Below are positions 16,649 to 53,854 of a stretch of DNA of 64,000 nt, piece after piece (position 1 is the stretch's first letter; each line of letters starts with the position of its first letter). The stretch is from Lysobacteraceae bacterium PS02340 (lineage in GTDB: Bacteria > Pseudomonadota > Gammaproteobacteria > Xanthomonadales > Xanthomonadaceae). The notes beneath the pieces are model-generated. The model was not told the DNA's origin, did not search any database, and saw only the letters and a program-made list of their open reading frames with translations. The stretch covers positions 62,001 through 126,000 of the forward strand of contig JASCOC010000011.1 of assembly GCA_029959605.1 (NCBI GenBank). Direction: 5' to 3'. The position numbers were made by a program, and so were the translations under genes.

Positions 16649-16752
16649 GGCCGTGACCTCGTGAATGGATGGGCGGGCCGGAACCCGTCGACAGGTAGCT
16701 TGCCCCCGCTTCGCTACAATCGCATCTGTCTTTCGTCACTGGGTCGATCGTC

Positions 16753-18303: not shown

Positions 18304-18305
18304 AC

Positions 18306-19553: not shown

Positions 19554-19655
19554 GTGGCACTGGCTGAGCGCTGCTCGCCGCCTGCCTAAGCCACCCCTCA
19601 CCCCAACCCCGCTCCCGGTGGGAGACGGGCCAAGGCCCAGACGCTCGCAACGTAC

Positions 19656-19766: not shown

Positions 19767-19898
19767 CAGACGCACGCGATGCACTGCTGTTGGGCGGATA
19801 CGCCGCGGCAATCCCCCACGTCCCCATTCCGCCTCCCCCGAGCGAACCCACCGCCCACGCACCACAACACTGCATCCGGATCCCCCGGAGTCCGGCGC

Positions 19899-20276: not shown

Positions 20277-20362
20277 GCGGCTGTGTTCGGTTAATCGGAC
20301 TGGGCAAAACGCTTGCGCAGACGCAAGCCCCTCTCCCTCCGGGAGAGGGGTTGGGGTGAGGG
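20227..20362. repeat. Inverted repeat pair at the end of the DUF559 gene
   Basis: Two 37-38-bp elements face each other: 20227-20264 (CCCTCACTCCAACCCC onward) and 20326-20362 (AGCCCCTCTCCC to GGTTGGGGTGAGGG). The reverse complement of the first matches the second with about two differences. Each element also has an internal palindrome (CCCCTCTCCC / GGGAGAGGGG). The first copy lies inside the nuclease reading frame. Related palindromes occur at 13324, 15350, 15598 and 19656. Confidence 0.85.
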
Positions 20363-20541
20363 CCGCCGACCCCAGCACCTTCTGTGCGTGCGACTTCTTG
20401 CGCGCACCTCCAACAGGCCGACATCAAACCCACCCACAGAACTGAACATCCCCGCCCGCCTTTAACGCATTCACACACCCTGCCCGCATAATCGATCGAC
20501 GCGCGACCGCGCGTGTCGCCCGCCTTTCCCCGGAGTCCTGC

Positions 20542-22206: not shown

Positions 22207-22554
22207 TCAGCGACAGGCACAGGCGACAGGCGATAGGCGACACGCTACGCATGAAGGGCGATGGGCCACTGGTCATTGCCGACTGACGCATTCGTCGCCC
22301 CGGCGCAGGCTGGGGCCCAGCGACTCGGCTTGCAATGTGTTCTGCAAGAGCGACTACAGACGGCGCGGCTCTCAGAGCCCGTCGCCCCAGCGCACGCTGG
22401 GTCCCATTTTGACGTTGCCTGAAACTTCAGCCGCCCAGCCGCCTGACCCACGCATCAAAGCCCGCCGACAACCAAGCGCTCAGCGCCGTCGCGCCGCCAT
22501 CGCCCGCTGCGCGCCGGGCCCAAGCGACTGTACTGAGAGCAACAAACGCACGAT
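22207..22554. repeat. Gap with two palindromic repeats
   Basis: No convincing gene in 348 bp. Two elements of the GTCGCCCCxGCGxAxGCTGGG family occur at about 22292-22317 and 22379-22404, in the same orientation, each followed by CCCA. They match the element near 7301 in layout. Confidence 0.6.
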
Positions 22555-22950
22555 CTAACTCCCCCGCGCCACCACCCACCACCCCAACCCCGACAGCAAC
22601 ACCCCAAGCACCACGCTTGCGATCACATACACCGCTGCCATCCCCACATCCCCACGGCGCAGCAACGCCAGCGTCTCCAGCCCGAACGCCGAAAACGTCG
22701 TGAATCCCCCCATGACGCCGACGATCAGCATTGCCCGCACGTCCGGCGTGAACCAGCCGTGCCGCGAGATTCCGCCCGCCATCAGCCCGGCGACCAGACA
22801 CCCCAACAGGTTCACCACGAACGTCCCCACCGGAAACCGCGGCGGCACGTCCGCGCTCGCGCCCGCAAACTGCAGCATCCACACCGACAGCTGATACCGG
22901 CACGCCGAACCGAACGCACCGCCGAGCGCGATCAACAACAGCCGGTTCAA
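22555..22950 (-). CDS. crcB: Fluoride channel CrcB/Fluc
   Basis: About 131 residues and four membrane helices. Family motifs are ALGGAFGSACRYQLS at the N terminus, PVGTFVVNLLGCLVAG (with the conserved GTxxVNxxG asparagine), VGVMGGFTTFSAF and a last helix with VLLSGLGWW. It exports fluoride as a dual-topology dimer. No ATG is in position; the TTG at 22950 gives a family-typical N terminus, and a GTG further upstream is possible. It lies downstream of tRNA-Arg on the same strand. No clear fluoride riboswitch is seen upstream. Confidence 0.92.
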   Translation of the reverse strand: MNRLLLIALGGAFGSACRYQLSVWMLQFAGASADVPPRFPVGTFVVNLLGCLVAGLMAGGISRHGWFTPDVRAMLIVGVMGGFTTFSAFGLETLALLRRGDVGMAAVYVIASVVLGVLLSGLGWWVVARGS

Positions 22951-23083
22951 AGCCGCTGCTCCGCAGCCCACGCACGGATACTGAGCACCGGCCAAGCGGT
23001 GGGAGCCAACACGTAAGAAAGGGAACAGGCCTGCGGCATCGGTCCTCGCACGCGGCCGGGACCGCACGGAACATCGCAGAAAA

Positions 23084-23160
23084 TGGCGCGCCTGGAGGGA
23101 TTCGAACCCCCGACCAATGGCTTCGGAAGCCACTACTCTATCCGGCTGAGCTACAGGCGC
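23084..23160 (-). tRNA. tRNA-Arg (CCG)
   Basis: 77-nt cloverleaf read on the minus strand. The acceptor stem is GCGCCTG with CAGGCGC and an encoded CCA end. The T arm contains GGTTCGAATCC, the D arm has AGCTCAGCCGGATAGAG, and the anticodon loop TTCCGAA places CCG at 34-36. It reads the CGG codon, common in this GC-rich genome. Confidence 0.95.
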
Positions 23161-23362
23161 GTCGTCCACGCCAAGCCGGAACAACGGGCAGGGCGGTCGC
23201 GCATTGTATCGAAAACTGCGGGTATTGAGACAGTTCCGCAGCTGTTCGGAAATAGCGCCGCAGGCGTGTTCTCCCGGTGAGTCACTGCGTGGTCGATTAC
23301 GGTTTGGCCTGTCAGGTTTCGAAGCAGCAGCATGGATCGACGCAGCATCTGTAACCCTGGTC

Positions 23363-24529
23363 TCAATCCCCGCCAAACAGGTCCCGACTGTACACCTTGT
23401 CCTCCACATCGCGGATCTCGTCGGTCAGGCGGTTCGCGAGAATCAGATCGGCCTGTCGCTTGAACGTGGCGAGATCATTGACGACGCGTGAGCGGTAGAA
23501 ATCCGGCGCATCGAGAACGGGCTCGTACACGATCACTTCGATGCCCTTGGCCTTGATCCGTTTCATGACGCCTTGGATGGCGGAAGCGCGGAAGTTGTCG
23601 CTGCCGGCTTTCATCACCAGGCGGTAGATGCCGACGACTTTCGGATTGCGACGCACGATGTCGGCTGCGATGAAATCCTTGCGCGTCGTGTTGGCCGACA
23701 CGATCGCCTGGATCAGGTTCTGCGGCACCGCGTCGTAGTTCGCAAGCAGCTGGCGCGTGTCCTTCGGCAGGCAGTAGCCGCCGTAGCCGAAGGACGGGTT
23801 GTTGTAGTGCCCGCCGATGCGTGGATCGAGACACACACCCTCGATGATCTGGCGCGTCTCGAGTCCATGCGTGCACGCATAGCTGTCGAGCTCATTGAAG
23901 TACGCGACGCGCATGGCGAGGTACGTGTTCGCGAACAGTTTGATGGCTTCCGCCTCCGTCGATTCGGTGAACAGCACGGGCACATCGGCCTTGAGTGCGC
24001 CTTCCCGCAGAAGCTCAGCGAATACAAACGCGCGTTCTGATCGCTCGCCGACCACGATGCGGCTCGGATAGAGGTTGTCCTGCAGTGCTCGGCCTTCGCG
24101 CAGGAACTCGGGCGAAAAGATGATCCGATCCGTGCCGAACATCGCGCGCACGCGCTCGGTGTAGCCGACGGGCACAGTCGACTTGATGATCATCGTCGCG
24201 TCCGGCTCGATCGCCAGCACGTTGGCAATGACAGCTTCGACGGATCGGGTGTTGAAGGTATGGGTCGCCGAGTCGTAGTTGGTGGGTGTCGCGATGACGA
24301 CGTACTCGGCGCCCGCGAACGCCTCTGCAGGGATCAGTGTTGTTCTGAAGTCGAGTTCGGGGCGCGCGAGGTAGGTCCTGATCTCCTCGTCGTCGAGCGG
24401 TGACTCGCGCCGGTTCAACGCCTCGACCCGCGCCGCATCGATGTCCAACGCGACCACGGTATGGCGCTGTGCCAGCAGCAGGGCATTGGAGAGGCCCACG
24501 TAGCCGGTACCGGCGATGGCGATGCGCAT
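23363..24529 (-). CDS. ugd: UDP-glucose 6-dehydrogenase
   Basis: 388 residues. Oxidises UDP-glucose twice to UDP-glucuronate with NAD, supplying surface polysaccharide. The N-terminal Rossmann motif is [29 protein letters not shown] and FSPEFLREG follow. [20 protein letters not shown] is the central-helix motif, and the catalytic cysteine lies in [10 protein letters not shown]. Length is typical of the short (388-aa) bacterial type. No other polysaccharide gene is adjacent in the window. Divergent from ubiA, with 123 bp between starts. Confidence 0.95.
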
Positions 24530-24652
24530 GCGCGTATCCGGTGGAGGCTCGCGGCGATGCTAGGTGGGCAATGTGTCGGCTTCGCGACCGGATGTCCCTC
24601 ACAGCCCGAGCGTGGCTGGGCGCCGCGGGCGCGCTGGTATCCTCCCATCGCC

Positions 24653-25573
24653 ATGCACGACTACGAACGCTTCTCCGAACCCGCCGTCCCACGCTGGCGC
24701 GAGCGCTTGCGCCAGTACTGGGTGCTGGTGCGCGGGGATCGGCCGATCGGCTGGTTGCTGCTGCTCTGGCCGACGTGGTGGGCGCTGTGGATTGCGGCCG
24801 GGGGCGTGCCGCCGCTGTGGACGCTGTTCGTGTTCAGTGCCGGCGTCTGGCTGACGCGCTCGGCCGGCTGCGTGATCAACGATTACGCCGATCGCTGGCT
24901 CGATCCGCATGTCGAACGCACCAAGGACCGGCCGCTCGCCAGCGGCGCGGTGCGTGGGCGCGAGGCCTTGCTGCTGTTCGCGGCGCTGATGCTGGTCGCG
25001 TTCGCGCTGGTGCTGACGATGAACTGGCTGACGGTCGCGATGAGCGTCGTCGGTGTCTTTCTCGCGGCGAGTTATCCCTATCTCAAGCGCCATACCTACC
25101 TGCCGCAGGTCTATCTGGGCATCTCGTTCGGCTGGGCGATTCCGATGGCGTTCGCGGCCGTGCAAGGCACGGTGCCGCCGATCGGCTGGGTCCTGTTCGT
25201 GGCCAACATCTTCTGGACCACCGGCTACGACACCTGGTACGCGATGGTCGATCGCGAAGACGACATCCGCGCCGGTTCGAAATCGACGGCGATCCTGTTC
25301 GGCGATCTCGATCTGGTCGCGCAGGGCGTGCTCTACGCGCTGGCGTTCGCGGCGCTCGCGCTGGTGGGGCGCGAGGCGGGGCTTGGGCCGAACTACTGGC
25401 TCGGCCTTGCGTTCGCCGCATTGCTCGTCGTCTGGGAATTCTTCGTCGCGCGATACCGCGATCGCAACGCCTGCTTCCGCGTGTTCCTGCACAACCACTG
25501 GGTCGGCATGGCGATCTTCGCGGGCATTGCGGCGCATTACGCGTTGCCGCCGGCGACAATGCTGCTGCGCTGA
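24653..25573 (+). CDS. ubiA: 4-hydroxybenzoate octaprenyltransferase
   Basis: 306 residues and about nine membrane helices. Transfers the polyprenyl chain to 4-hydroxybenzoate in ubiquinone synthesis at the inner membrane. The two aspartate-rich prenyl-diphosphate motifs are NDYADRWLD (after RSAGCV) and DREDD (after [11 protein letters not shown]). The start at 24653 gives the standard MHDYxRF-like N terminus; longer frames overlap the ugd promoter region. Single gene; the next gene is convergent. Confidence 0.94.
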
Positions 25574-25586
25574 CGTGCGGCGCGGC

Positions 25587-26471
25587 TCAGGCCGCGCGAG
25601 TCATGTGTTCGACCAACTTGCGCGCGACCGCCGGCAGACGCTCGAACGAGGCCACGCACAGGTGCATGCGGCGCGTCGCCCAGGCGTCCTGCAGCGGAAT
25701 CAGTCGCACGCGCTGGTCGAGTGCGAACGCGCGCACGATGTTGCGCGGCAGGACCGCCACGCCCAGGCCCGCTTCGACCATGCGATACACCGCATCGAAG
25801 CTGCGCACCTGCACGCGCAACCGCAGCGCGCCGCGCGCGGTCATCGCCTCGACCATCAGGCGCCGGGTCAATGCGGTGCTGCCCTCGAGCGCGACGAAGT
25901 CGTAGGCCAGCAGTTCGGAGAAGCGGACGCGGCTGCGGCGGATCGCGTAACTCGCCGGCACGATCGCGACCAGATCGTCCTGCCGGTAATCAAACACCGA
26001 CAGATCGTCGCAGTTGTCCTTGTCGACGATCACGCCGATGTCGGTCGCGCCGGCGCGCACCGACTGCACGATCTCGTGGCTCCAGCGCTCCTCGATGTCC
26101 ACGCGGACCTGCGGATGCAGGTTGGAGAACGAGACCAGGTCGTCGGGCAGAAACTGCGCCAGCGCCGAGGTGGCCGCCTGGATACGCACGTGCCCGGTGA
26201 TGCCGGCCGCGTAATCGCTCAGGTCCAGATCGATCTTCTGGACCATGTTGAGCAGTTGGCGGATCTGCGGAATCGCCGCCTTGCCGGCATCGGTGGGCTC
26301 CACGCCACGCGAGGTGCGCTTGAGCAGCTTCACCTTGTAGTGGTGCTCGAGCAGGGCGATGCGCCGGCTCGCGGCCGCCAGCGCGATGTTGGAAACCTCC
26401 GCCGCGCGCGAAATGCTGCCCATCTCGGCGGCGTTGAGGAACAGGGCGAGCGAGCTGGGGTCGGGCAGCAT
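25587..26471 (-). CDS. LysR-type transcriptional regulator
   Basis: 294 residues. The N-terminal winged helix-turn-helix reads FLNAAEMGSISRAAEVSNIALAAASRRIALLE. The effector-binding domain follows (VRIQAATSALAQFLPDDL to the end). Start MLPDPSS at 26471 puts the HTH at the usual place. It is divergent from the outer-membrane channel/GMC oxidoreductase genes, with 153 bp between, where a perfect LysR-like palindrome lies (26514-26528). It most likely controls that pair. The inducer cannot be read from the sequence. Confidence 0.9.
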   Translation of the reverse strand: MLPDPSSLALFLNAAEMGSISRAAEVSNIALAAASRRIALLEHHYKVKLLKRTSRGVEPTDAGKAAIPQIRQLLNMVQKIDLDLSDYAAGITGHVRIQAATSALAQFLPDDLVSFSNLHPQVRVDIEERWSHEIVQSVRAGATDIGVIVDKDNCDDLSVFDYRQDDLVAIVPASYAIRRSRVRFSELLAYDFVALEGSTALTRRLMVEAMTARGALRLRVQVRSFDAVYRMVEAGLGVAVLPRNIVRAFALDQRVRLIPLQDAWATRRMHLCVASFERLPAVARKLVEHMTRAA

Positions 26472-26513
26472 CGGGACAGGCCTTCGACGAGGTGGCTGCA
26501 CTCTACGCCTGCC

Positions 26514-26528
26514 TTCGCAATCTGCGAA
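26514..26528. promoter_or_regulatory. Candidate LysR operator, TTCGCA-N3-TGCGAA
   Basis: A perfect 6-bp inverted repeat with a three-base spacer lies 43 bp from the regulator start and about 97 bp from the channel gene start. It contains a T-N11-A core, the general LysR box. Binding by the divergent regulator is inferred. Confidence 0.5.
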
Positions 26529-26624
26529 ATCGGCGTGGACTGATTTCGAATTCCAAGTGGGCGCGGATGTGAAGACACTGCGAGCGCCGCCACCTGTCCG
26601 CGGCCATGTCCACGGGAGGGGATC

Positions 26625-27542
26625 ATGCAAGTCCAGCTTCACGCGTCCGCCGGGCGCCGTCTGTCGAATCGTCTTCGAAGCGCGCTGCGTCCTGCGCTAG
26701 TCGCTACCGCGCTGCTCGCCAGCGGCGCCGCCAGCGCTGTCGGCATCGATGCCGGCGATTACGTCGCCGCGCCCCCGGGCACCGATCTGTTCCTGATCTA
26801 CGCCCAGCATTCCGATGCCAAGGGGCTGTACGCCAACGGCAACCGTATCGACGACGACGCGCGCCTGGGCGTGGACCTGATCATGGGCCGCTACGTGAAG
26901 TTCGTCGAGGTCGGCGGTCGCACGCTCGACCTGCAAGTGCTCGCGCCATGGGTCCGTCTGCAGGGCGGCGGCAGCACCGCGGGCCTGGGCAGCACCAGCG
27001 GCATGGCCGACGTCATCCTGGTCAGCACGCTGTGGCTGGTCGAGGACAAGGACCAGCGCCGCTACTTCGGCGTTACGCCCTACGTCTGGCTGCCGACCGG
27101 CAGCTACGACCGCAATCGCGCGCTGAATCCAGGCGAGAACCGCTGGAAGGGTGCGCTGCAGGCCGTGGTCTCGCAGGGCCTGGGCGAGCACTGGACCACC
27201 GAGCTGTCGTTCGACGTGCAGGTGCACGGCGAGAACGACGAGTTCGCCGGCAACAACACCATGAAGCAGAAGGCGCTCTACGACACCCAGGGCTTCCTGC
27301 GCTACACCTTAAACCCGGCCAACGAACTGTCGTTGCGCGTGCGCTACCAGGCCGGCGGCGAAACCCGGGTCAACGGCATCGACCAGGACAACGAACTGGG
27401 CAACTGGTCCGCACTGGCGACCTACAGCCGCGCGCTGCCCGGCAACACCCAGCTGCTGCTGCAGGCCGGTCGCGACATCCGTATCGAGAACGGCTTCCGT
27501 GAGGAAAGCCGCGTGCAGTTGCGTTTTCTCAAGGCGTTCTGA
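26625..27542 (+). CDS. Outer-membrane channel of the phenol-degradation (MetA) family
   Basis: 305 residues. A signal peptide of about 38 residues ends near GAASA. The rest alternates short strands with aromatic ends, closing in the terminal phenylalanine (VQLRFLKAF) typical of outer-membrane barrels. DAGDYVAAPPGTDLFLIYAQH near the start, PYVWLPTGSYD, and QLLLQAGRDIRIENGFRE near the end match Phenol_MetA_deg-type proteins, which are found in aromatic degradation clusters. It is 29 bp upstream of a GMC oxidoreductase, so a joint role in taking up and oxidising an alcohol or aromatic compound is likely. Confidence 0.75.
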   Translation: MQVQLHASAGRRLSNRLRSALRPALVATALLASGAASAVGIDAGDYVAAPPGTDLFLIYAQHSDAKGLYANGNRIDDDARLGVDLIMGRYVKFVEVGGRTLDLQVLAPWVRLQGGGSTAGLGSTSGMADVILVSTLWLVEDKDQRRYFGVTPYVWLPTGSYDRNRALNPGENRWKGALQAVVSQGLGEHWTTELSFDVQVHGENDEFAGNNTMKQKALYDTQGFLRYTLNPANELSLRVRYQAGGETRVNGIDQDNELGNWSALATYSRALPGNTQLLLQAGRDIRIENGFREESRVQLRFLKAF

Positions 27543-27571
27543 TCACCATTGCCCGCTTCCTGGGAGGGAAC

Positions 27572-29284
27572 ATGAAATTCGGACACGATGACGAGACGGT
27601 CGCGAGCGCGATCGGTGCATACCGGTCGGGGCAGGTCAGCCGCCGCGGCTTCCTGAAAATGGCGACCGCTGCCGGCGTGGGCATCGGCCTGGCCGGTACG
27701 CTCGCGAGCATGTGGTCGCCGCAGGCGCGCGCGCAGTCCACCCGGACCAGCCCGGTGCCGCGTGGCAGCTTCGACTACATCGTCGTCGGTGGCGGCTCGT
27801 CGGGCGCCACGCTCGCCGGTCAGCTTGCGATGCGCAGTGGCGCGAGCGTGCTGCTGCTCGAGGCAGGCGTGCCCGATGTCGCGCCGGAGATCCACGACCC
27901 GCGCGACTGGCCCAAGGTGCTGGGCTCGCCGATGACCCGCGTGTTCAACACCACGCCGCAGATCCATGCCGACAACCGCAGCGTCGCCTGGCCGCGCACG
28001 CAGACCCTGGGTGGCTGCAGCGCGGTGAACTGCATGATCTACCAGCGCGGTCACGCCAGCGATTTCGACAGCTGGGCGCACGAAGGCTGCTACGGCTGGG
28101 ATTTCGCTTCCGTGCTGCCGACCTACAAAGCACTCGAAACCTGGCAGGGCGGCGCGAGCGAGTATCGCGGTGACGGCGGTCCGCTGTTCGTCACCCAGCC
28201 CGCGCCCGGACATCGCCACGACGGCGCCGAAGCCTTCATGGCGCAGGCGATCGCCATGGGCTATGCCGAAAACCCGGATTTCAACGGGCCGTCGATGGAG
28301 GGGCCGACCTGGGTCAACTTCACGATTTCCGGCGGCAAGCGCCAGTCTTCGGCAGTGGCGTTCCTGCATCCGGCGATGGAGCAGCGCGACAACCTCACCG
28401 TGTTGTGCGAGGCGCCGACGCTGGAGCTGGTGATGGAGCGCGGCCGCTGCGTCGGCGTGAAATACCTGCACGACGGCAAGCCGGCGGTCGTGCGCGCGAC
28501 GCGAGAGGTGGTGCTATCCGCTGGCGCGATCGCCTCGCCGTGGCTGCTGATGCTCTCGGGCATCGGGCCGGAAGCCGAGCTGCGCAAGCACGGCATCGCG
28601 GTCCAGCACGCCCTGCCGGGCGTCGGCCAGAATTTGCACGACCACGTGCTCGGCGGTGGTCTGAACTGGGAAGCGAAGGCGCCGGTGCCGGCATCGGAAT
28701 ACAACATGTCCGAGACCTACTTCTGGACGAAGTCCAACCCGGGCCTACGCGCGCCCGACATCAACACGCTCTACGTCAGCCTGCCGTTCCACACGCCGGA
28801 ACTGCCGGCCACGTTCGAGAACGGCTACTCAATCCTCACCGGTGTCATGCGGCCGTCCTCGCGCGGCGCGATCACACTGGCGTCGAAGGATCCGCGGATC
28901 GATCCGCTGGTCGATCCGGCCTACCTGTCGACCGAGCAGGACCGTCGCGCATTCCTGGCCGCGACCGAGCTCGGTCGCGAGATCGGCAACGGCGCCGCCT
29001 TCGACGGCATCCGCCGACGCGAGGTGCTGCCTGGTCCTTCGGTGAAGAGCAAGGCCGACATGGAAGCGTTCCTGCGAAAGGCCTGCGCGACGTTCTTCCA
29101 TCCGGTGGGCACCTGCCGCATGGGCACGGGCAGCGATGCGGTGGTCGATCCGGAACTGCGCGTGCACGGCGTCGACGGCCTGCGCGTGGCGGACGCCTCG
29201 ATCATGCCGTCGATCACCACCGGCAACACCAACGCGCCGTCGATCCTGATCGGCTGGAAGGCGGCGGAAATGCTCGCCGCCTGA
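27572..29284 (+). CDS. Tat-exported GMC family oxidoreductase
   Basis: 570 residues. The N terminus has a twin-arginine signal (SRRGFLKMATAAGVG to ARAQ), so the folded flavoprotein is exported to the periplasm. FAD-binding motif YIVVGGGSSGATLAGQLA, GMC signature 1 (TLGGCSAVNCMIYQRG), signature 2 (SAGAIASPWLLMLSGIG) and the catalytic C-terminal pair (His in FHPVGTCRMG, Asn in TTGNTNAPS) are present. It oxidises an alcohol and passes electrons probably to the respiratory chain. Substrate unknown. It is in an operon with the preceding channel and ends at a strong terminator. Confidence 0.9.
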   Translation: MKFGHDDETVASAIGAYRSGQVSRRGFLKMATAAGVGIGLAGTLASMWSPQARAQSTRTSPVPRGSFDYIVVGGGSSGATLAGQLAMRSGASVLLLEAGVPDVAPEIHDPRDWPKVLGSPMTRVFNTTPQIHADNRSVAWPRTQTLGGCSAVNCMIYQRGHASDFDSWAHEGCYGWDFASVLPTYKALETWQGGASEYRGDGGPLFVTQPAPGHRHDGAEAFMAQAIAMGYAENPDFNGPSMEGPTWVNFTISGGKRQSSAVAFLHPAMEQRDNLTVLCEAPTLELVMERGRCVGVKYLHDGKPAVVRATREVVLSAGAIASPWLLMLSGIGPEAELRKHGIAVQHALPGVGQNLHDHVLGGGLNWEAKAPVPASEYNMSETYFWTKSNPGLRAPDINTLYVSLPFHTPELPATFENGYSILTGVMRPSSRGAITLASKDPRIDPLVDPAYLSTEQDRRAFLAATELGREIGNGAAFDGIRRREVLPGPSVKSKADMEAFLRKACATFFHPVGTCRMGTGSDAVVDPELRVHGVDGLRVADASIMPSITTGNTNAPSILIGWKAAEMLAA

Positions 29285-44002: not shown

Positions 44003-45442
44003 TTACGCCACGCCGCCCTTCGCCAGCACGCTGTTGCGGCGCGAGTAGACCAGATACACCACGACGCCGAGCACGTTCCACGCCAGGAACCACAGCTGCG
44101 TGCGCGACGGCAGGCTCCAGAACAGATACAGGCAGCCGAGGATCGCGACCGGTCCGACCACCCACGCCAGCGGCGTGCGGAACACGCGCGGACGTTCGGG
44201 ATCGCGGTGGCGCAGCACCAGCAGGCAGACGGCCACCGCAGTGAACGCGGCCAGCGTGCCGGCATTGGCGAGCGCGGCGATCTCGTCCAGCCGCGCCACG
44301 CCTGCGAGCGCGGCGACCAGCACCGCGGTGAACAGCGTGATCGCCACCGGCGTGCCGGTGCGCGGATTGACCTTCGACAGGCCGCGCGGCAGGAGGCCGT
44401 CGCGCGACATGACGAAGAAGATGCGGCTCTGGCCGTAGAAGAACGCCAGCAGCACGGTCGGCAGCGCGATGATCGCGACCACGCCGATCGCGAGCGCAGC
44501 GGTGGGATGGCCTAGCTCGCGCATGATCAGCGCCAGCGGCTCGGCGCTCTTGCCGAACACCGCGAAGCTCATCGCACCCACCGCGGCCAGCGCGACCAGC
44601 ATGTAGATGATCGTACAGCCGACCATCGAGCCGACGATGCCGATCGACAGGTCACGTCCGGGATTCTTGGTTTCCTCGGCCGCGGTGGAGATCGCATCGA
44701 AGCCGTAGAACGCGAAGAAGATGATCGCGGCCGCCGCCATGACCCCGCGTTCGACGCCGTCGGCGCCGAGCGACTTCGGAAAGCCGAACGGCATGAAGGG
44801 TTCCAGGTTGGCCGCATCGAACGCCGGCAGCGCGACCGCAATGAACACGCCGAGCGCGATCAGCTTGAACACCACCAGCACCGCATTGAGCGTGGCGCTC
44901 TCGCGCGTGCCTGCGATCAGCAGGCCGGCGACCGCGAACGTGATCGCGATGGCCGGCACGTTGAGCGCGCCGCCGGCATGCGGCCCGGCCGCCAGCGAGG
45001 CGGGCAGGGTGACGTTCCAGCCGAAGTTCGTCTGCAGCCACTCGAGGAAGCCGACGAAGTAGCCCGACCACCCGACCGCGACCGTGCTCACCACCAGCGA
45101 GTACTCGAGAATCAGGCTCCAGCCCACGACCCAGGCGATCGCCTCGCCGAGCACCGCGTAGCTGTAGGTGTAGGCACTGCCGGCCGCCGGCATCATCGTC
45201 GACAGCTCGGCGTAGGCCAGCGCGGCGCAGGCGCAGACCACGCCCGCGATCATGAAGGACAGCAGCACCGCGGGCCCGGCCTTGTCCGCGCCGACGCCGA
45301 TCAAGGTGTAGATGCCCGTACCGACAATGGCGCCGATGCCCAGCGCGATCAGGTGCGGCCAGCCGAGCGTGCGGACCAGGCGACGGCCCTCCTCATGCTC
45401 GGTGATCCGGTTGATGTCCTTGCGTCGCAGCCAGGCCTGCAT
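44003..45442 (-). CDS. APC-family amino acid permease
   Basis: 479 residues and about 12 membrane helices. The start pattern DINRITEHEEGRRLVRTLGWPHLIALGIGAIVGTGIYTL is that of the cationic amino acid transporter/YfnA group. AYAELSTMMPAAGSAYTYSY and FFAFYGFDAISTAAEETKNP are the family's second and central motifs. Start ATG at 45442 is preferred to the TTG at 45451. Substrate is likely an amino acid; no nearby gene narrows it down. Confidence 0.9.
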   Translation of the reverse strand: MQAWLRRKDINRITEHEEGRRLVRTLGWPHLIALGIGAIVGTGIYTLIGVGADKAGPAVLLSFMIAGVVCACAALAYAELSTMMPAAGSAYTYSYAVLGEAIAWVVGWSLILEYSLVVSTVAVGWSGYFVGFLEWLQTNFGWNVTLPASLAAGPHAGGALNVPAIAITFAVAGLLIAGTRESATLNAVLVVFKLIALGVFIAVALPAFDAANLEPFMPFGFPKSLGADGVERGVMAAAAIIFFAFYGFDAISTAAEETKNPGRDLSIGIVGSMVGCTIIYMLVALAAVGAMSFAVFGKSAEPLALIMRELGHPTAALAIGVVAIIALPTVLLAFFYGQSRIFFVMSRDGLLPRGLSKVNPRTGTPVAITLFTAVLVAALAGVARLDEIAALANAGTLAAFTAVAVCLLVLRHRDPERPRVFRTPLAWVVGPVAILGCLYLFWSLPSRTQLWFLAWNVLGVVVYLVYSRRNSVLAKGGVA

Positions 45443-45588
45443 GTCGATCAACCGGTCGAGGTGAGGCGCGTAGTCTGTGCCATCGCCGGGGGCTTGGCGA
45501 GATGCGGCGCGGCATGCAGGCGGCGGTCATTCCGACGGCCTGGATCGATTCGCCACGGCCGGTTCGACCCGCGTTCGCGGGCGGCGCT

Positions 45589-46380
45589 TCAGTCCATCTG
45601 GAACCCCAGCATCGCGGAGATTTCGCGCGAGGTCCGCAGCAGGGATTCGACGTGCTGCGGATCGGCCGATGCCGGCAGGTAGTGGATCGAGCCCACGATC
45701 GCGAGCGTGCCGAACAGCGAGCCGTCGGCCTGCAGCAACGGCGCGGCGAGCGCGTTGATGCCGGTGAACAACTGCTCGGGTGCATCGGACCAGCCGCGTG
45801 CGCGGACGGCGTCGATCTCCGCGCGCAGTGCGTTCGCATCGGTGATCGACAGCGGCGTGCTTTGTGGCAGTGGCGCGGACAGGAAGCCGTCGCGCACGTC
45901 GTCGGGGCCGAAAGCGAGAACGACCTTGCCTTGCGCGCTGGTGTTGTGCGGAAAGCGGCTGCCGGGTCGCAGCGTGATCTCGATCGGCGAGGTGCCGCGC
46001 AGGAAGTCGATGACGATCACCGAGTCGTCGGCGTACGAGGCGATGACGATGGTCTGTCCGACCTCGTCGCGCAGGCGCTGCAGCGCGGGCTTGGCCAGCG
46101 TCATCAGATCGAAGCGGCCCACGCACGCGCGGCCCAGCAGATACAGCTGCCAGCCGACCCGGTAGTGGTTGCTGGTCGCGTCCTGGGTCACGTAGCCATG
46201 CTCGCGCAGCGCGCTCAGATGCCGGTGCGCGCGTGCCTTCGGCATGCCGAGCAGATGCGACAGCTGGGTCACGCCCAGACCCTGCGGCGCATTGGCCAGT
46301 GCCTCGATGACCTTCAGCGAGACGACGGCGGTCGGCAGTGCGGCATCGCCGAGATCGGTGGAGGGATCTGCGTTCTGCAT
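45589..46380 (-). CDS. IclR-family transcriptional regulator
   Basis: 263 residues. An N-terminal winged helix (TAVVSLKVIEALANAPQGLGVTQLSHLLGMPKARAHRHL) and the IclR effector domain with FDLMTLAKPALQRLRDEVGQTIVIA and NTSAQGKVVLAF. Start MQNADP is at 46380. It lies downstream of the cupin gene on the same strand and close to the aromatic operon; IclR members (PcaR, PobR, CatR types) often control such genes. The matching palindromes at 47149 and 47218 are candidate sites. Confidence 0.9.
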   Translation of the reverse strand: MQNADPSTDLGDAALPTAVVSLKVIEALANAPQGLGVTQLSHLLGMPKARAHRHLSALREHGYVTQDATSNHYRVGWQLYLLGRACVGRFDLMTLAKPALQRLRDEVGQTIVIASYADDSVIVIDFLRGTSPIEITLRPGSRFPHNTSAQGKVVLAFGPDDVRDGFLSAPLPQSTPLSITDANALRAEIDAVRARGWSDAPEQLFTGINALAAPLLQADGSLFGTLAIVGSIHYLPASADPQHVESLLRTSREISAMLGFQMD

Positions 46381-46447: not shown

Positions 46448-47122
46448 TTACGCGGGGAGTTCGATGTCGCGCTCGGCGAACACGCGATACGTCTGCACCT
46501 TCGGTGCGTCCGCGTCTTCGGGGCGTACGTAGCGGATCGAGCTGCGGCTCCGCACCGCACGCGGCAGCAGGAAGCAGCGCACGAACCGTGTCGGAGTGTC
46601 TTCCGTGGTCGGCGCGAGCACCGGCGCAGGGCCGAGTTCGAACCAGGCCTCGCCCGGTGCGTGCGTGTGTCGCGTGCCCTGGGTCTCGATCGAGATCTCG
46701 CCGCTCGCGCAGATGCGGATGCCCGGGCCCTGGTGCACGTGGGTCAGGGCGACGCCGCCGGGCGGAAAGCCCACCTCGTCGCAACGCATCAGCCAGTCGA
46801 AGCGCGGGTCGAGTGCGACGTCGGCTTCCAGCTTCAATGTGGTCGACGTCGAAGGCGCCGACGGCAACACAGGCGCCGCAGGTGTCGATGCCTCCGTCAG
46901 CTCCCACCGCCAGATCCGTGTATCCGTCTGGTCGCCGATCAGCGTGGTGCTGTCTTGGGACACGCGCGCGGTGCCGGCGGTCAGCCACTGCCCATCGTCC
47001 GGACCTTCCAGCGTCAGGCCGCCGTCCACCACATACAGCGCACGCGGCGTCGCCGGCAGAAAGACGGGCGGGCAGCCCGCAGGCAACAGGTCTTCGTAGA
47101 GACGCAGGGTCAGCGCGCGCAT
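46448..47122 (-). CDS. Double-cupin protein
   Basis: 224 residues. The second half has the cupin motif with HxH (THVHQGPGIRICASGE) and the later H-x4-E (HAPGEAWFE), giving a metal site. The first half has a similar but less complete cupin strand pattern (LYVVDGGLTL, WLTAGTARV), suggesting a bicupin. Start MRALTLR at 47122 has AGGAG upstream. Divergent from the MFS transporter across the twin palindromes. It could be a dioxygenase, isomerase or sensor; not assigned. Confidence 0.72.
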   Translation of the reverse strand: MRALTLRLYEDLLPAGCPPVFLPATPRALYVVDGGLTLEGPDDGQWLTAGTARVSQDSTTLIGDQTDTRIWRWELTEASTPAAPVLPSAPSTSTTLKLEADVALDPRFDWLMRCDEVGFPPGGVALTHVHQGPGIRICASGEISIETQGTRHTHAPGEAWFELGPAPVLAPTTEDTPTRFVRCFLLPRAVRSRSSIRYVRPEDADAPKVQTYRVFAERDIELPA

Positions 47123-47148: not shown

Positions 47149-47165
47149 GTATCGACTGTCGATAC
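47149..47165. promoter_or_regulatory. Operator candidate 1, GTATCGACTGTCGATAC
   Basis: A perfect inverted repeat of two 8-bp arms with a one-base centre, 27 bp upstream of the cupin gene start. It shares GTATCGA-N4-CGATAC with the site at 47218. Probably bound by the nearby IclR regulator. Confidence 0.65.
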
Positions 47166-47217
47166 GAAATGAATGATGTGGATCATTGATCGAGACTTAT
47201 TGTATATTGATACACGA

Positions 47218-47234
47218 GTATCGATCAACGATAC
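47218..47234. promoter_or_regulatory. Operator candidate 2, GTATCGATCAACGATAC
   Basis: Same 17-bp layout as the site at 47149 (GTATCGA-N4-CGATAC), 62 bp upstream of the MFS start. The centre-to-centre distance is 69 bp. A related TGTAT-N4-ATACA lies between them at 47201-47214, near the likely promoter. Confidence 0.65.
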
Positions 47235-47295: not shown

Positions 47296-48561
47296 ATGTC
47301 TCAAGACAGCAGTGCGGAGATGGGAAGCAACGCCCGCGGCGAGCGTTGGTGGAAGGGCGCCAGCAAGCAGCAGTGGCGCGCGTTCAATTCGGCCTATCTC
47401 GGCTGGATGCTCGACATCATGGATCTGATGTTGTTCGCGATGGTCATCAAGTACGTGATCGTCGATCTGGGCATGGACAAGTCCTCGGCCGGTCTGGTGA
47501 TGTCGGCCACGTTGATGGCGACGGCCGCGGGCGGGCTGGTGTTCGGCTTCCTCGCCGACCGTCTCGGACGCGCACGGTCGATGATGCTCAGCATCATCTG
47601 TTACTCGGTCGGCACTGCGCTGTGCGGTCTGGCCGACACGCTCGGCCAGCTGATGCTGTTCCGGATCATCGTCGGCCTCGGCGTGGGCGGCGAATGGTCG
47701 GCGGGCTCGGCGCTGGTCAGCGAGACCTGGCCGGCGAAGCACCGCGGCAAGGTGATGGCGTGGGTGCAGAGCGCATTCGCAGCCGGTTACGCGGCCGCCG
47801 CCGTGGTCGCGGCGCTGGTGATCCCGGTCGCCGGCTGGCGGTGGGTGTTCGCAGTCGGTCTGCTGCCGGCGCTGCTGGCGTTCTACGTGCGCCGCCACGT
47901 CAAGGAGCCGGACATCTGGCTCAGCCAGACCAGGCGACTGACGTTCGGCGAAACGGTGCGCGAGCTGTTCGGCGGGCCCTACGCGCGCAATACCTGGATC
48001 GGCCTGGCGTTCACCACGGCCGCGATGTGCGGCTACTGGGGACTGTTCACCTGGATCCCGACGTACCTGGCCACGCCGGTCGCCGAGGGCGGCCCCGGCC
48101 TGGATCTGGTCAAGTCGACGATCTGGATCGTGATCATGCAGGTCGGCGCGGCCGCGGGCTTCATCACCTTCGGCTACATCGCCGACCGGATCGGTCGCAA
48201 GAAAGCCTTCCTGTTGTTCTTCCTCGCCTCGGCGCTCGTCGTGCCGATCTTCGCGACCATCCGGTCGCCCGAGATGCTGATGGTCTTCGGCGTGGTCGTC
48301 GCCTACTTCGGCACCGGCTTCTACAGCGGATTCGCCCCGACGTTCGCCGAGCTGTTCCCGACGACGATCCGCGCCACCGCGCAGGGCTTCGTCTACAACG
48401 GCGGCCGCGCGATTGCCGCCGTCGCGCCGTTCCTCATCGGCTTCATCTCCACGCGCTATGGCGTCACCAGCGGACTGGTGACGACGGCCGCGTTCTTCGC
48501 GCTGGCCGGCCTGATCGTCTGGGTGTGCCTGCCCGAGACCAAGGGCCGCGAGCTCGCCTGA
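47296..48561 (+). CDS. MFS transporter, aromatic acid:H+ symporter-like
   Basis: 421 residues and 12 predicted helices. Features: an N-terminal GWMLDIMDLMLFAMV, the loop 2-3 motif GFLADRLGRARSMM, a central GVGGEWSAGSALVSETWP and a second loop IADRIGRKKAF. These fit the AAHS/benzoate-type MFS group that imports aromatic or dicarboxylic acids. Start at 47296 follows CGGGAG; longer frames reach into the operator region. First gene of the meta-pathway operon. Confidence 0.88.
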   Translation: MSQDSSAEMGSNARGERWWKGASKQQWRAFNSAYLGWMLDIMDLMLFAMVIKYVIVDLGMDKSSAGLVMSATLMATAAGGLVFGFLADRLGRARSMMLSIICYSVGTALCGLADTLGQLMLFRIIVGLGVGGEWSAGSALVSETWPAKHRGKVMAWVQSAFAAGYAAAAVVAALVIPVAGWRWVFAVGLLPALLAFYVRRHVKEPDIWLSQTRRLTFGETVRELFGGPYARNTWIGLAFTTAAMCGYWGLFTWIPTYLATPVAEGGPGLDLVKSTIWIVIMQVGAAAGFITFGYIADRIGRKKAFLLFFLASALVVPIFATIRSPEMLMVFGVVVAYFGTGFYSGFAPTFAELFPTTIRATAQGFVYNGGRAIAAVAPFLIGFISTRYGVTSGLVTTAAFFALAGLIVWVCLPETKGRELA

Positions 48562-48584: not shown

Positions 48585-48788
48585 ATGCCCGTCATCCAGA
48601 TCACCGTGGTCGAAGGCCGCGATTCCGAACGCATCGAAGCCTGCATCCGCGACGTCGCGCGCGTCGTCAGCGCGACCCTCGATGCGCCGCTGCCGTCGAT
48701 CCGCGTCATGGTCCACGAAGTCCCGGCGAACCGCTTCGCCGTCGGCGCGCGGCTCAAGAGCGATCCGGCGCCGGAGACGGCAGCATGA
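48585..48788 (+). CDS. 4-oxalocrotonate tautomerase
   Basis: 67 residues. Begins MPVIQITVVEGRD with the catalytic N-terminal proline exposed after methionine removal, and has arginine in SIRVMVHEVPANRFAVGA. Family length is about 60-75. Converts 2-hydroxymuconate (enol) to 4-oxalocrotonate (keto). Four-base overlap with the hydratase gene that follows. GGAG lies before the ATG. Confidence 0.88.
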   Translation: MPVIQITVVEGRDSERIEACIRDVARVVSATLDAPLPSIRVMVHEVPANRFAVGARLKSDPAPETAA

Positions 48789-49564
48789 CCGTAGCGATCT
48801 CGACGCACGCCGATGCCCTGCACGCGGCGCTGCGCAGTGGCCAGCCGATCGATCCGCTGACCGGTCGCGTGGACGGACTCGATCTCGCCGGCGCCTACGC
48901 GATCGCGCAGGCCGGCATCGCCCATCGGCTCGCCGAAGGCGAGACCGTCGTGGGTCGCAAGATCGGTCTGACCAGCGTGGCCGTGCAGCGGATGCTCGGC
49001 GTCGACCAGCCCGACTTCGGCGTGCTGACCGATCGCATGGACCATTCGCGCAGTGGCGCCATTCCCGTCGACGGCATGATCGCGCCGCGTGCGGAAGGCG
49101 AGATCGCCTTCCATCTCAAGCGCGATCTCGCCGGTCCCGGCGTCACGCTGCACGACGTGCTGCTGGCGACGGAATCGGTGTCGGCGTGTTTCGAGATCGT
49201 CGACTCGCGGATCCGCGACTGGAAGATCGGCATTCTCGATACCGTCGCCGACAACGCCTCCGCCGCGGCCTTCGTCACCGGTGAGGCGCGCGTGTCGCCG
49301 ATCGGACTCGATCTGGGGACCTGCGGCATGGCGCTGGAGAAGAACGGCGCGCTGCTCTCGACCGGCGCCGGCGCCGCCGCGCTCGGCTCGCCATTGAACT
49401 GCCTGGTGTGGCTGGCGAACCAGCTGGGCCGGCTGGGCAGTGGCCTCAAGGCCGGCGACACGATTCTCTCGGGTGCACTCGTGCCGCTGACGCCTGTCGT
49501 CCGCGGCGACCACCTGCGCCTGCGCGTCGGCGGCATCGGCGCGGTGGACCTGCACTTCGTCTGA
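48785..49564 (+). CDS. mhpD: 2-oxopent-4-enoate hydratase
   Basis: 259 residues. Adds water to 2-hydroxypenta-2,4-dienoate, giving 4-hydroxy-2-oxovalerate. VGRKIGLTSVAVQRMLGVDQPDFGVL is the hydratase form of the motif; the decarboxylase paralogue at 51618 has the GMKMG form. EGEIAFHLKRDL, VDSRIRDWKI and DNASAAAFVTG follow. The gene symbol follows the mhp naming; dmpE or xylJ are equivalent. Confidence 0.9.
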   Translation: MTVAISTHADALHAALRSGQPIDPLTGRVDGLDLAGAYAIAQAGIAHRLAEGETVVGRKIGLTSVAVQRMLGVDQPDFGVLTDRMDHSRSGAIPVDGMIAPRAEGEIAFHLKRDLAGPGVTLHDVLLATESVSACFEIVDSRIRDWKIGILDTVADNASAAAFVTGEARVSPIGLDLGTCGMALEKNGALLSTGAGAAALGSPLNCLVWLANQLGRLGSGLKAGDTILSGALVPLTPVVRGDHLRLRVGGIGAVDLHFV

Positions 49565-49633
49565 TCGCACGGCGTCCCCTTCTTATCGGGCGCGGTCGCG
49601 CGTCCGGTTCTTCATCGTTTCGAGGAGTCACAC

Positions 49634-50578
49634 ATGCCCGTCAAGGCTGCCGTGATCGGTTCCGGCAACATCGGCACCGATCTGATGATCAAGATCCTGC
49701 GCCACGGCCAGGCACTGTCCATGGGCCCGATGGTGGGCATCGATCCTGCTTCCGACGGTCTGGCGCGCGCCCGCGCGATGGGCGTCGAGACCTGCGACGC
49801 CGGCGTCTACGGATTGACGATGTCGCCGGCGTTCGACGACGTGCAGATCGTGTTCGATGCGACGTCCGCCGCGGCGCACGTCCACAACGACGCGGTGCTG
49901 CGCGCGGCGCGGCCTGACATCCGCGTGGTCGATCTGACGCCCGCGGCGATCGGCCCATACTGCGTGCCGTCGGTCAATCTCGATGCGCATCTCGATGCGC
50001 CCAACGTCAACATGGTGACCTGCGGCGGCCAGGCGACGATTCCGATCGTCGCCGCGGTGGCAAGCGTGGCCACCGTGCATTACGCGGAGATCGTCGCGTC
50101 GATCTCGAGCCGCTCGGCCGGCCCGGGCACGCGCGCGAACATCGACGAATTCACCGAAACCACCTCGCGTGCGATCGAGGCGGTCGGCGGCGCGCGCAAG
50201 GGCAAGGCGATCATCGTGCTCAATCCGGCGGAGCCGCCGCTGCTGATGCGCGACACGGTCTACGTGCTGTCCGACGACGTGGACACCGCGCGTGTCGAAG
50301 CGGCGATCGAAGCGATGGTGGCGCGCGTCGCGCGCGACGTGCCGGGCTATCGCCTCAAGCAGACCGTGCAGTTCGAGCGCATCGAACAGCCGGTCAACGT
50401 GCCGGGACTCGGCCCGATGACGGGCCTCAAGACGTCGGTGTTTCTCGAGGTCGAAGGCGCGGCGCATTACCTGCCGGCCTACGCCGGCAACCTCGACATC
50501 ATGACCTCGGCCGCGCTCGCGACCGGCGAACGCATCGCCGCAACGCTGCAGGCCGCATCGCAGGAGACGCAGGCATGA
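49634..50578 (+). CDS. mhpF: Acetaldehyde dehydrogenase, acylating
   Basis: 314 residues. Converts acetaldehyde, NAD and CoA to acetyl-CoA. Rossmann start [19 protein letters not shown]; the catalytic cysteine is in [38 protein letters not shown] follows. It forms a channelled complex with the aldolase encoded next, whose start it overlaps by four bases. A 69-bp gap separates it from the hydratase gene. Confidence 0.94.
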
Positions 50579-51621
50579 GCGGCAAGACGCTCTACATCTC
50601 GGACGTCACCCTGCGCGATGGCTCGCATGCAGTGCGCCATCAATACACGGTCGCGCAGATGCGGCAGATCGCCGCGGCCCTCGACAAGGCAGGCGTGGAC
50701 TCGATCGAGGTCGCGCACGGCGACGGCCTGCAGGGCGCCTCGTTCAACTACGGCTTCGGCGCGCACTCCGATCTGGAGTGGATCGAGGCCGTCGCCGAGA
50801 CCGTGCAGCACGCCCGGGTCGCGACATTGCTGCTGCCCGGCATCGGCACCGTGCACGATCTGAAGGATGCCTACGCCGCCGGCGCGCGCGTGGTGCGCGT
50901 GGCCACGCATTGCACCGAGGCCGATGTCGCGCGCCAGCACATCGAAGCGGCGAACGCGCTGGGCATGGACGCGGTTGGCTTTCTGATGATGAGCCACATG
51001 GCCGAGCCGGCTGCGCTCGCCGCGCAGGCGAAGAAGATGGAGTCCTACGGCGCTTCGTGCGTGTACGTGGTCGACTCCGGCGGTGCGATGGGCATGACCG
51101 AGATCCGCGAACGTTTCCGCGCGTTCAAGGACGTGCTCGACAGTGCCACGCAGACCGGCATGCACGCGCATCACAACCTGTCGCTGGGCGTGGCGAATTC
51201 GATCGTCGCCGTCGAGGAAGGTTGCGACCGCATCGACGCCAGTCTCGCCGGCATGGGTGCCGGCGCAGGCAACGCGCCGCTGGAAGTCTTCATCGCCGCC
51301 GCTTCGAAACTCGGCTGGCAGCACGGCTGCGATCTGTATGCGCTGATGGACGCCGCCGACGACATCGTGCGTCCGTTGCAGGAACGTCCGGTGCGCGTCG
51401 ACCGCGAAACGCTGGCGCTCGGCTATGCCGGCGTCTATTCGAGTTTCCTGCGGCATGCGGAAGCCGCGGCGCAGCGCTTCGGCATCAGCGCCGTCGACAT
51501 CCTCGTCGAGCTCGGCAAGCGGCGCATGGTCGGTGGTCAGGAGGACATGATCGTCGACGTGGCCCTGGACGTCGCGCGCGCACGCGGTACCGCGGCCGCG
51601 CAGCCGGAGGTGGCGGCATGA
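50575..51621 (+). CDS. mhpE: 4-hydroxy-2-oxovalerate aldolase
   Basis: 348 residues. Cleaves 4-hydroxy-2-oxovalerate to pyruvate and acetaldehyde. [16 protein letters not shown] is the metal-binding start (R-D and histidine), FVHA-like [18 protein letters not shown] supplies the metal histidines, and VEVAHGDG and [17 protein letters not shown] are family motifs. Works with the acylating dehydrogenase encoded just before it. Overlaps the next gene by four bases. Confidence 0.94.
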
Positions 51622-52406
51622 GCCTGTCGCCCGCCACCATCGATGAGATCGCCACGCTGCTGCACGACGCCGAGCGCGACGTGCGCGACGTGGTCAAGGT
51701 CACCGACGCGCAGCCGGATCTCGATACCGAAGCGGCCTACCGCGTACAGGACGCGTTGCGTGCGCTCAAGCTCGCGCGCGGCGTGCGACTGGTCGGCATG
51801 AAGATGGGTCTGACGTCCTTCGCCAAGATGGAACAGATGGGCGTCGACACGCCGATCTACGGCTTCCTCGGCAGCGACAACGCGGTCGACGACGGTGCGG
51901 CGGTCGAGACGGCGGCGCTGATCCACCCCAAGGTCGAAGCCGAAATCGCCTTCGTCATGCGCGACGCCCTGCAGGGCCCGGAGTGCACGGTCGAGCAGGT
52001 GCTGGCGGCGACCGCCTGCCTGCTGCCGGCCGTCGAGGTTATCGATTCGCGCTACGAGAATTTCCGCTTCGACCTGCCGAGCGTCATCGCCGACAACACG
52101 TCGGCCTCGCGTTACGTGATCGGCTCGAAGGCCGCGTCCGCGGACGGGCGCGATCTGGAATCGATCGGCGTGGTGCTCGAGAAGAACGGCCAGGTGGTCG
52201 AGGTCGGTGCGGGCGCCGCGGTGCTCGGCAATCCCGCGCGCGCCGTTGCGATGCTGGTCGACATGCTGCATGCGCGCGGGCAGTCGCTGCCCGCCGGCAG
52301 CGTGGTGCTGTCGGGCGCGATCACGGCCGCGGTCGCGGTGGAGGCCGGCGACCACGTCCAGGTCCGCATCGACGGCCTCGGCTCGACCGGGCTGCGCTTC
52401 GTCTGA
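51618..52406 (+). CDS. 2-oxo-3-hexenedioate (oxalocrotonate) decarboxylase
   Basis: 262 residues. Paralogue of the hydratase but with the decarboxylase signature [55 protein letters not shown] and DNTSASRYV follow. Removes CO2 from 4-oxalocrotonate to give 2-oxopent-4-enoate, feeding the hydratase. In known systems the two form a complex. Four-base overlap with the aldolase gene. Confidence 0.88.
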
Positions 52407-52471: not shown

Positions 52472-53854
52472 ATGTTGAGATCGAACCGGAAGGGCGCGCG
52501 CCTGTCGCTCGCCCTGGCCCTCGCGGCCGCCTGCGCGGCGCCCGCTGCGGCGCAGGACATCGACGTCGCCGCGGTCGAAGCGCGTCTGGGCCAGATGGAG
52601 CAGGAGATGCGCGAGCTGCGCGCGCTGCTCGCAGCGCACGGCGGCACAGCCGTGTCGCCGGCGGTCGCACAGTCGTCGGCACCTGTCGCAACGGCGCCCG
52701 CCACAGCAGCCGCATCCGTCGCAGCAGCGCCGGCGCAGAAGACCGTGGCGATGCCGGGCGCGGCGCCGGGCACCACGTTCTTGTTCGGCGGCTTCATCAA
52801 GCTCGATGCGATGACGACCAGCACCAGCGACGGCAAGATCGCCGACGGCTCGGCCGGTCGCCTGTTCTACTTCCCGGGCGCGACGCCGGTCGCCGCGGAC
52901 GGGCAGGGCGCGCGCAGCACCTACAGCGATCTGCACGCGCAGTTCTCGCGCTTCTCGTTCGGCGCCGACACGCTGACCGACAGCGGCAACACCATCAAGG
53001 CCTACATCGAGGCCGACATGTACGGCGGCGGCAGCAACGCATTCGCCGGCAACGAGACCATCACCAACACCTATGCGCTGACGCTGCGGCAGGCCTACGT
53101 CAGCTACAACGGCTGGCTCGCCGGCCAGACCTGGTCGAATTTCCAGGACGTCGCTGCGCTGCCCGACACGGTCGATTTCACCGGGCCCTCGGAAGGCACG
53201 GTATTCAACCGCCAGGCCCAGGTGCGCTACACGCGCGGGCCGTGGTCGGTGTCGATCGAGAATCCGCAGACGACGGTCACGCCGTACCTGTCGCAAGCCG
53301 CGCGGTTCAACAGTGGCGACAATCGTGCGCCCGACGTGACCGCGCGCTGGATCACCCGCGGCGACTGGGGGCACTTCACCGTCGCCGGTCTGGCACGCAG
53401 CTTCCGCAACGGTGATGCGACCGCATCGGGCGCGGCGCTCAGTGTGTCGGGCCGCTTCAACGTCGGCGCCAGCGACGACATCCGCTACATGGTCAGCGGC
53501 GGCGACGGCATCGGTCGCTATCTCGGCTTCGCGCTCGGCAGCGACACCGTGCTCGACGCCGACGGCGGCCTGCACAGCCAGAGCGGTTACGGCGGATTCG
53601 CCGCGTGGCGGCATGCGTTCAACGCCAAGCTGCGCGGCAACGTCGTCTACTCGATCGCCTCGCTCGACAACGACGCACTGCTCACCGGCGGTTTCGTCAC
53701 CGAGCGCGCGCAGTCGTTCCGCGTGAACATGATCTATTCGCCGGCGCCGAAGCTCGACATCGGCGGCGAGATCAGCTGGGCCGACCGGCGCCTCGAAAAC
53801 GGCCTCGAAGGCGATCTGCAGCGCGTGCACACCCACGTCAAATACAGCTTCTAA
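52472..53854 (+). CDS. DcaP-like outer-membrane porin
   Basis: 460 residues. Signal peptide to AAPAAAQ, a short coiled-coil segment (VAAVEARLGQMEQEMRELRALL), an alanine-rich linker, then a beta-barrel ending in a terminal phenylalanine (HVKYSF). FLFGGFIKLDAM, FSFGADT and QTWSNFQDV match DcaP-type porins, which pass dicarboxylates and are trimeric with N-terminal coiled coils. It lies 65 bp after the decarboxylase in the same direction. GGGAGGGG precedes the ATG. Probably the outer-membrane entry for this operon's substrate. Confidence 0.85.
   Translation: MLRSNRKGARLSLALALAAACAAPAAAQDIDVAAVEARLGQMEQEMRELRALLAAHGGTAVSPAVAQSSAPVATAPATAAASVAAAPAQKTVAMPGAAPGTTFLFGGFIKLDAMTTSTSDGKIADGSAGRLFYFPGATPVAADGQGARSTYSDLHAQFSRFSFGADTLTDSGNTIKAYIEADMYGGGSNAFAGNETITNTYALTLRQAYVSYNGWLAGQTWSNFQDVAALPDTVDFTGPSEGTVFNRQAQVRYTRGPWSVSIENPQTTVTPYLSQAARFNSGDNRAPDVTARWITRGDWGHFTVAGLARSFRNGDATASGAALSVSGRFNVGASDDIRYMVSGGDGIGRYLGFALGSDTVLDADGGLHSQSGYGGFAAWRHAFNAKLRGNVVYSIASLDNDALLTGGFVTERAQSFRVNMIYSPAPKLDIGGEISWADRRLENGLEGDLQRVHTHVKYSF

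Follow-up and report, generated by a model that had tools for sequence, protein, structure and literature searches.

Two 17-bp palindromes in the gap between a cupin gene and a divergent MFS transporter gene appear to be operators of the IclR-family protein encoded beside the cupin gene, and would work as a local switch of one locus, not as part of a regulon. We put the probability of this whole reading, which was reached by comparing sequences, at about 0.8; it was lowered from 0.85 because the same predicted promoter pair is found in only 4 of the 17 gaps compared. The window, i.e. the whole stretch of DNA analysed, is 64,000 nucleotides long and comes from Lysobacteraceae bacterium PS02340; the features discussed are collected in Table 1. 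Taken as predicted, the result is ordinary but clean: a local IclR operator pair, one member of which would have three boxes, at an unusual fixed spacing.

Table 1. Features of the cupin/MFS locus, with window positions and strands
Feature	Position	Strand	Remark
IclR-family regulator, candidate binder	45589-46380	-	HTH_IclR and IclR_C above Pfam cut-offs
Two-domain cupin (bicupin), first gene of leftward transcript	46448-47122	-	Cupin_2 just below cut-off
Palindrome C, candidate cupin-side operator	47149-47165		centre 35 bp before cupin ATG
Predicted cupin/IclR promoter	47199-47228	-	-35 TTGATC 47223-47228, -10 TACAAT 47199-47204; consensus match only
Third box GTATCA (TGATAC on +)	47208-47213	-	half-site in direct orientation; first box of palindrome M is 21 bp away
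Palindrome M, candidate transporter-side operator	47218-47234		centre 70 bp before MFS ATG
MFS transporter, first gene of rightward operon	47296-48561	+	MFS_1
4-oxalocrotonate-tautomerase-family protein, 67 aa	48586-48789	+	E ~2e-11 to 4-OT (1bjp), 8e-21 to 7puo
Hydratase (DmpE-like)	48785-49564	+	348 bits against a cut-off of 409, below
Acetaldehyde dehydrogenase (DmpF)	49634-50578	+	above cut-off
Aldolase (DmpG)	50575-51621	+	above cut-off
Decarboxylase (DmpH)	51618-52406	+	above cut-off
DcaP-type outer-membrane porin	52472-53854	+	PF19577 above cut-off

The twin palindromes and their conservation

A sequence-only reading of the window had reported the two 17-bp palindromes with a distance of 69 bp from centre to centre, and both were located exactly where it had placed them: palindrome C is GTATCGACTGTCGATAC and palindrome M is GTATCGATCAACGATAC. 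The motif that they share had been given as GTATCGA-N4-CGATAC. The shared palindrome is real. Palindrome C is a perfect 8+1+8 palindrome and the arms of palindrome M are only 6 bp long, so the motif is better given with a 5-bp centre, as the 12 common letters GTATCG-N5-CGATAC. When the motif in its first form was searched on both strands of the window with up to 2 mismatches, 8 rows were obtained, four of them palindromes C and M, against 0.95 expected; none of 100 shuffles reached this number.

Then, we compared this gap, which separates the cupin gene from its divergent neighbour, across 17 distinct genomes. The set consists of the window, eight genomes of the same genus (L006-L011, L018, and L020), Xanthomonas massiliensis (L012), six other Xanthomonadaceae (L035-L038, L040, and L041), and one genome of the same class but of another family (L042). 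Six Luteimonas strains and X. massiliensis are the named relatives in which this cupin occurs, so that the host is probably a Luteimonas-like member of the Xanthomonadaceae. Both sites are present in 17/17 gaps with 11-12 of the 12 letters: palindrome M matches at 12/12 in 16 loci and at 11/12 in one, palindrome C at 12/12 in 10 loci and at 11/12 in 7. The distance between the centres is 69-72 bp (SD 1.0, n = 17), and the outer distances, from the sites to the start codons, have an SD of 15-16 bp (n = 17 on the cupin side and n = 16, without L038, on the MFS side; transporter and cupin starts were set by a script rule). The spacing is unusual, and it is strictly kept across the 17 genomes.

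Few invariant columns lie outside the two sites and the third box described below, and the sequence between the sites is poorly conserved across genera. The gene order IclR-cupin / MFS-tautomerase-dmpEFGH is kept in most loci, with flanks that vary between some of them, and both sites are retained in L040 and L042 though the partner genes change.

A third box and likeness to known IclR operators

Beside palindrome M we observed a third, direct half-site, which is a new observation and gives the predicted operator a three-box layout. On the cupin strand, GTATC comes after palindrome M, with four variable bases in between, and the step from the first to the third box is 21 bp, i.e. two turns. 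At least 4 of the 5 bases of GTATC occur at this exact offset in 13/17 loci; the box is missing in L008 and in the three genomes of genus g48. Among nine representatives, hand-picked to thin close relatives, seven have the third box, and in 2000 shuffles of the surrounding bases the maximum at any offset was four. A third, half-related palindrome, TGTATATTGATACA, had previously been proposed between the other two. The window does contain this sequence, but the relatives do not retain its symmetry, and it consists of the third box joined to a -10-like sequence.

According to the excerpts of PMC8222616 on which we draw here, the group-1 IclR motif is GKTYCRYW3-4RYGRAMC, three boxes in alternating direction occur in 32 orthologous groups, and the third box is needed for the binding of PcaU; the alternative dimerisation on three boxes is said there to require experimental validation. 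In a hand comparison, the sites agree with group 1 in being an inverted repeat of 17-18 bp (here 17 bp) with C-R at half-site positions 5-6, but depart from it at half-site position 3, where A stands in place of T in the first half of 16/17 M sites and 16/17 C sites. This suggests that the GTATCG half-site is an atypical group-1 member with A for T, as far as the motif is given in those excerpts.

The external half-site has a direct orientation (GTATC at +21 of palindrome M). The operators of the PcaU/PobR/HmgR type likewise combine an inverted repeat with an external direct half-site, in alternating boxes, and likewise adjoin a catabolic operon with the regulator gene nearby. However, the half-site is GTATCG here and GTTCG or TGTCCG there, the three-box site here has a second site 69-72 bp away, and the IclR protein scores 122.6 bits against the PcaR/PcaU/PobR model (NCBIfam TIGR02431), below its cut-off of 284.75.

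A second likeness is to the IclR tandem operators, in which two palindromes of one motif also share a single intergenic gap. As given in part of PMC8222616, a distance of 18-22 bp is the most usual one for tandem sites, and distances of about three and four turns are also over-represented. The centres compared here lie 69-72 bp apart, i.e. about 70 bp and not about 20, and not at whole turns.

Predicted promoters and the meaning of the spacing

A sigma-70-like scan of the gap identified the pair TTGATC-18-TACAAT on the cupin strand (9/12 letters, 0.2 expected). The predicted -35 sits inside palindrome M, the third box in the spacer, and palindrome C just downstream of the promoter. The same scan of the window gap gave no promoter on the MFS side. 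Thus, the earlier suggestion that the sites flank the promoters of both transcripts holds for the cupin side, where a pair was found, but not for the MFS side. Across the 17 gaps, the same pair is found in four (the window, L006, L007, and L009), other promoter-like pairs in three (L037, L038, and L040), and none in the remaining 10; a pair on the MFS strand occurs in L040 only. The promoter geometry is not established, because the pair is present in only 4/17 gaps.

In the mechanism that we propose, one IclR dimer would occupy each GTATCG-N5-CGATAC palindrome, with an extra contact at palindrome M to the third direct half-site 21 bp off. In the absence of effector, the protein would most likely repress both divergent transcripts, its own included, and the repression would be lifted by a pathway compound, either substrate or intermediate, which is probably a hydroxymuconate/oxalocrotonate-type dicarboxylate. 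We infer that cupin and iclR are co-transcribed. A protein on palindrome M would cover the predicted -35 and, together with the third box, the spacer of the putative cupin/IclR promoter; such an arrangement would speak for repression of this transcript and hence for autoregulation. The positions of the sites suggest that the MFS side is controlled as well.

Why the two sites are kept at this distance can be read in several ways. Slightly better than even, in our estimate, are the odds that they are two independent operators, one per promoter, with a spacing fixed by the length that divergent promoters need. This would agree with the overlap of palindrome M with the predicted cupin -35 in the window, and with the positions of the site centres, which are 20-80 bp from the gene starts, a span covered by the usual IclR site-to-start range (PMC8222616, in the part used). 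A geometry shared by all gaps is unsupported, however, and we rate this reading a little lower than we had at the outset because the same promoter pair occurs in only four of them.

Cooperative binding, in which an IclR tetramer (a dimer of dimers) would bridge the sites, bend or loop the intervening ~70 bp, and close both promoters, seems rather unlikely to us. It would account for a centre spacing so much tighter than the outer distances in the same 17 genomes and for the poor conservation of the intervening sequence across genera, and binding as tetramers is described for IclR-family proteins (PMC8222616, in part). On the other hand, 69-72 bp correspond to 6.57-6.86 turns at 10.5 bp per turn, which puts the two sites on different faces of the helix. 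DNA of 70 bp is stiff, and this counts against bridging. Furthermore, the published tandem distances are mainly 18-22 bp, those of about three and four turns being over-represented too (PMC8222616, in part). The sequence-only reading had seen room in this spacing for cooperative binding or looping. With 6.6-6.9 turns and a distance outside the 18-22 bp tandem rule, the data do not point to looping or tetramer bridging, although either may occur.

More doubtful still is a closed nucleoprotein unit composed of a three-box and a two-box operator, set 69-72 bp apart and off helical phase, in which the effector would switch IclR subunits between the two dimer arrangements allowed by three boxes and open both promoters at once.

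The IclR protein as the candidate binder

Whatever the role of the spacing, the reading that we prefer is that both palindromes are operators of the neighbouring IclR protein, which is very probably the best candidate binder of both. The protein scores 58.8 bits for HTH_IclR (cut-off 22) and 93.2 for IclR_C (cut-off 24), and its gene adjoins the cupin gene in 17/17 loci. Among 395 genomes of the family, an IclR ortholog at E<=1e-60 was found in 13, and a loose twin-site pattern, with the centre spacing free over 62-79 bp, in 14: these are 13/13 genomes with the ortholog and 1/382 without it, in a set of related genomes that are not phylogenetically independent and in which the cupin tracks the sites in the same loci. 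The lone match without an ortholog (G415) is rich in GC and lacks a GTATC half-site. When six relatives were searched over the whole genome, every exact single site fell in the cupin gap (6/6); the reversed pattern used as a control had a single exact match, in G502, among the six.

The named letters of the HTH segment MPKARxHRHLxxLR are invariant in 15/15 aligned orthologs (L018 and L020 were left out), the least similar of which is 52% identical. From the IclR fold, we take this segment to contain the recognition helix. The proposal that the IclR protein is the binder, made in the sequence-only reading, is thus well supported by conservation and co-occurrence, with the protein standing as a candidate.

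It is improbable that a regulator other than this IclR protein binds the palindromes. Binding by IclR is deduced from the comparison and the cupin accompanies the sites in just those loci where IclR does, which would leave room for such a regulator, but among the genes of the window IclR is the sole regulator mapped in all 17 loci, and the twin pattern is nearly confined to genomes with the ortholog.

Beyond the family, an IclR ortholog (E<=1e-45) was found in 3/369 genomes of a class sample, namely the own genome, G088, and G502, and in none of the other 53 genomes sampled from the order of G502. In a phylum sample the cupin occurs in 4/398 genomes. A distant cupin of the same phylum (35% identity; G1108, locus L102) adjoins a thiamine-pyrophosphate enzyme, and the 19 kb around it contain no IclR match and no site above 9/12. 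The plasmids searched gave no match to the cupin and IclR matches that were all below 60% identity, and the twin pattern was absent from the viral contigs searched.

Search for a regulon in the own genome

The own genome was searched as a draft of 3.70 Mb in 81 contigs. The exact motif GTATCG-N5-CGATAC is present in 2 copies, both in the cupin/MFS gap, against ~0.09 copies expected genome-wide and 2e-7 pairs within 100 bp (from the window dinucleotides). The idea that the palindromes are due to chance, are RNA hairpins or belong to a dispersed repeat can be set aside almost entirely, since palindromic 17-mers are fairly common (the window has six in which all 8 positions pair) but the genome holds just these two exact copies, the palindromes are kept in 17 gaps and across genera, and a promoter/terminator scan found no terminator-like site in the gap.

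It had been expected that a search for the motif would reveal the regulon and the upper pathway. This was not borne out: no exact copy exists apart from the two palindromes, and for the six copies with one mismatch no pathway link is evident. All six lie in long open frames as called by script, two of them in fusA-like and secA-like frames; by eye, a DUF2339 gene that follows a GAPDH gene likely starts ~15 bp downstream of one of the six (L062). From the list with two mismatches 12 regions were taken, and five of these, in addition to L003, were examined. Near-matches are more numerous than those of the reversed pattern: 8+8 against 1+1 at up to 1 mismatch, and 36+34 against 9+5 at up to 2. 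The excess may reflect base composition or weak further sites. No second regulated locus emerged from the whole-genome motif search.

Genes of the locus and the possible substrate

The cupin homolog of L042 is just above the Cupin_2 cut-off, and the window copy is above the cut-off of no curated family. Its predicted fold has a mean pLDDT of 83 (five models, 83 to 49), and the best structure matches reach a TM of ~0.5 with mixed functions. We did not retain its assignment to a known enzyme class: a PDB sequence search gave nothing useful, and the predicted fold suggests a bicupin and nothing more specific. The protein has a conserved HxHxGPGIR segment. Downstream of iclR lies a BcaP-like amino-acid permease (44003-45451); as a member of the unit it was discarded, with a tblastn match in 0/14 related loci.

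On the rightward side, the best NCBIfam model for the MFS transporter is the aromatic acid/H+ symport family, below cut-off, and the tautomerase has no Pfam match at E<=0.001. The lower meta-cleavage genes span 48785-52406 on the forward strand. As in the catechol meta-cleavage operons (dmp/aph), a tautomerase gene stands with the DmpE/F/G/H genes in the rightward operon; unlike in those operons, no ring-cleavage or semialdehyde dehydrogenase gene is among the annotated neighbours, and a transporter, a bicupin, and a porin are found instead. In L041 the porin gene lies on the far side of iclR, and L012, L040, and L042 gave no porin match. The simplest guess for the substrate is a dicarboxylate whose point of entry is 2-hydroxymuconate/4-oxalocrotonate or close to it.

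In L040 the MFS transporter and the tautomerase are kept and dmpEFGH is not adjacent; a DmpG-type gene (54% identity) lies elsewhere in that genome, and the surrounding 17 kb contain no site above 9/12. In L042 the tautomerase shares 60% identity with that of the window, and a DctPQM TRAP transporter takes the place of the MFS one; its dmp-like genes are on another contig, and the 19 kb fetched there contain no site above 9/12. In both loci the core of cupin, IclR, tautomerase, and transporter genes thus stands without adjacent dmpEFGH, so the cupin and the tautomerase may have their own substrate.

With this locus, a bicupin-tautomerase-transporter module for which word searches of the literature returned no description gains a sharply defined operator pair, a third box, and a candidate regulator. 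The 17 gaps are a natural set for asking why the IclR protein keeps its sites ~70 bp apart, and they also bear on whether the alternative dimerisation on three boxes discussed in the excerpts of PMC8222616 is real.

A possible upper pathway elsewhere in the genome

On contig 12 of the own genome, positions 10000-29000 (L096), a kynureninase and a 3-hydroxyanthranilate dioxygenase score above cut-off. An aldehyde dehydrogenase of the same cluster is nearest to the 2-hydroxymuconic semialdehyde dehydrogenase model, at 515 bits and below the cut-off of 693, and by eye an FAD-binding protein and an amidohydrolase resemble kynurenine 3-monooxygenase and carboxymuconate-semialdehyde decarboxylase. 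Co-regulation of this cluster through the palindromes was dropped, as no motif match with up to 2 mismatches is listed on its contig. The cluster could be an upper pathway ending in 2-aminomuconate, with a product that would feed the tautomerase/DmpH step.
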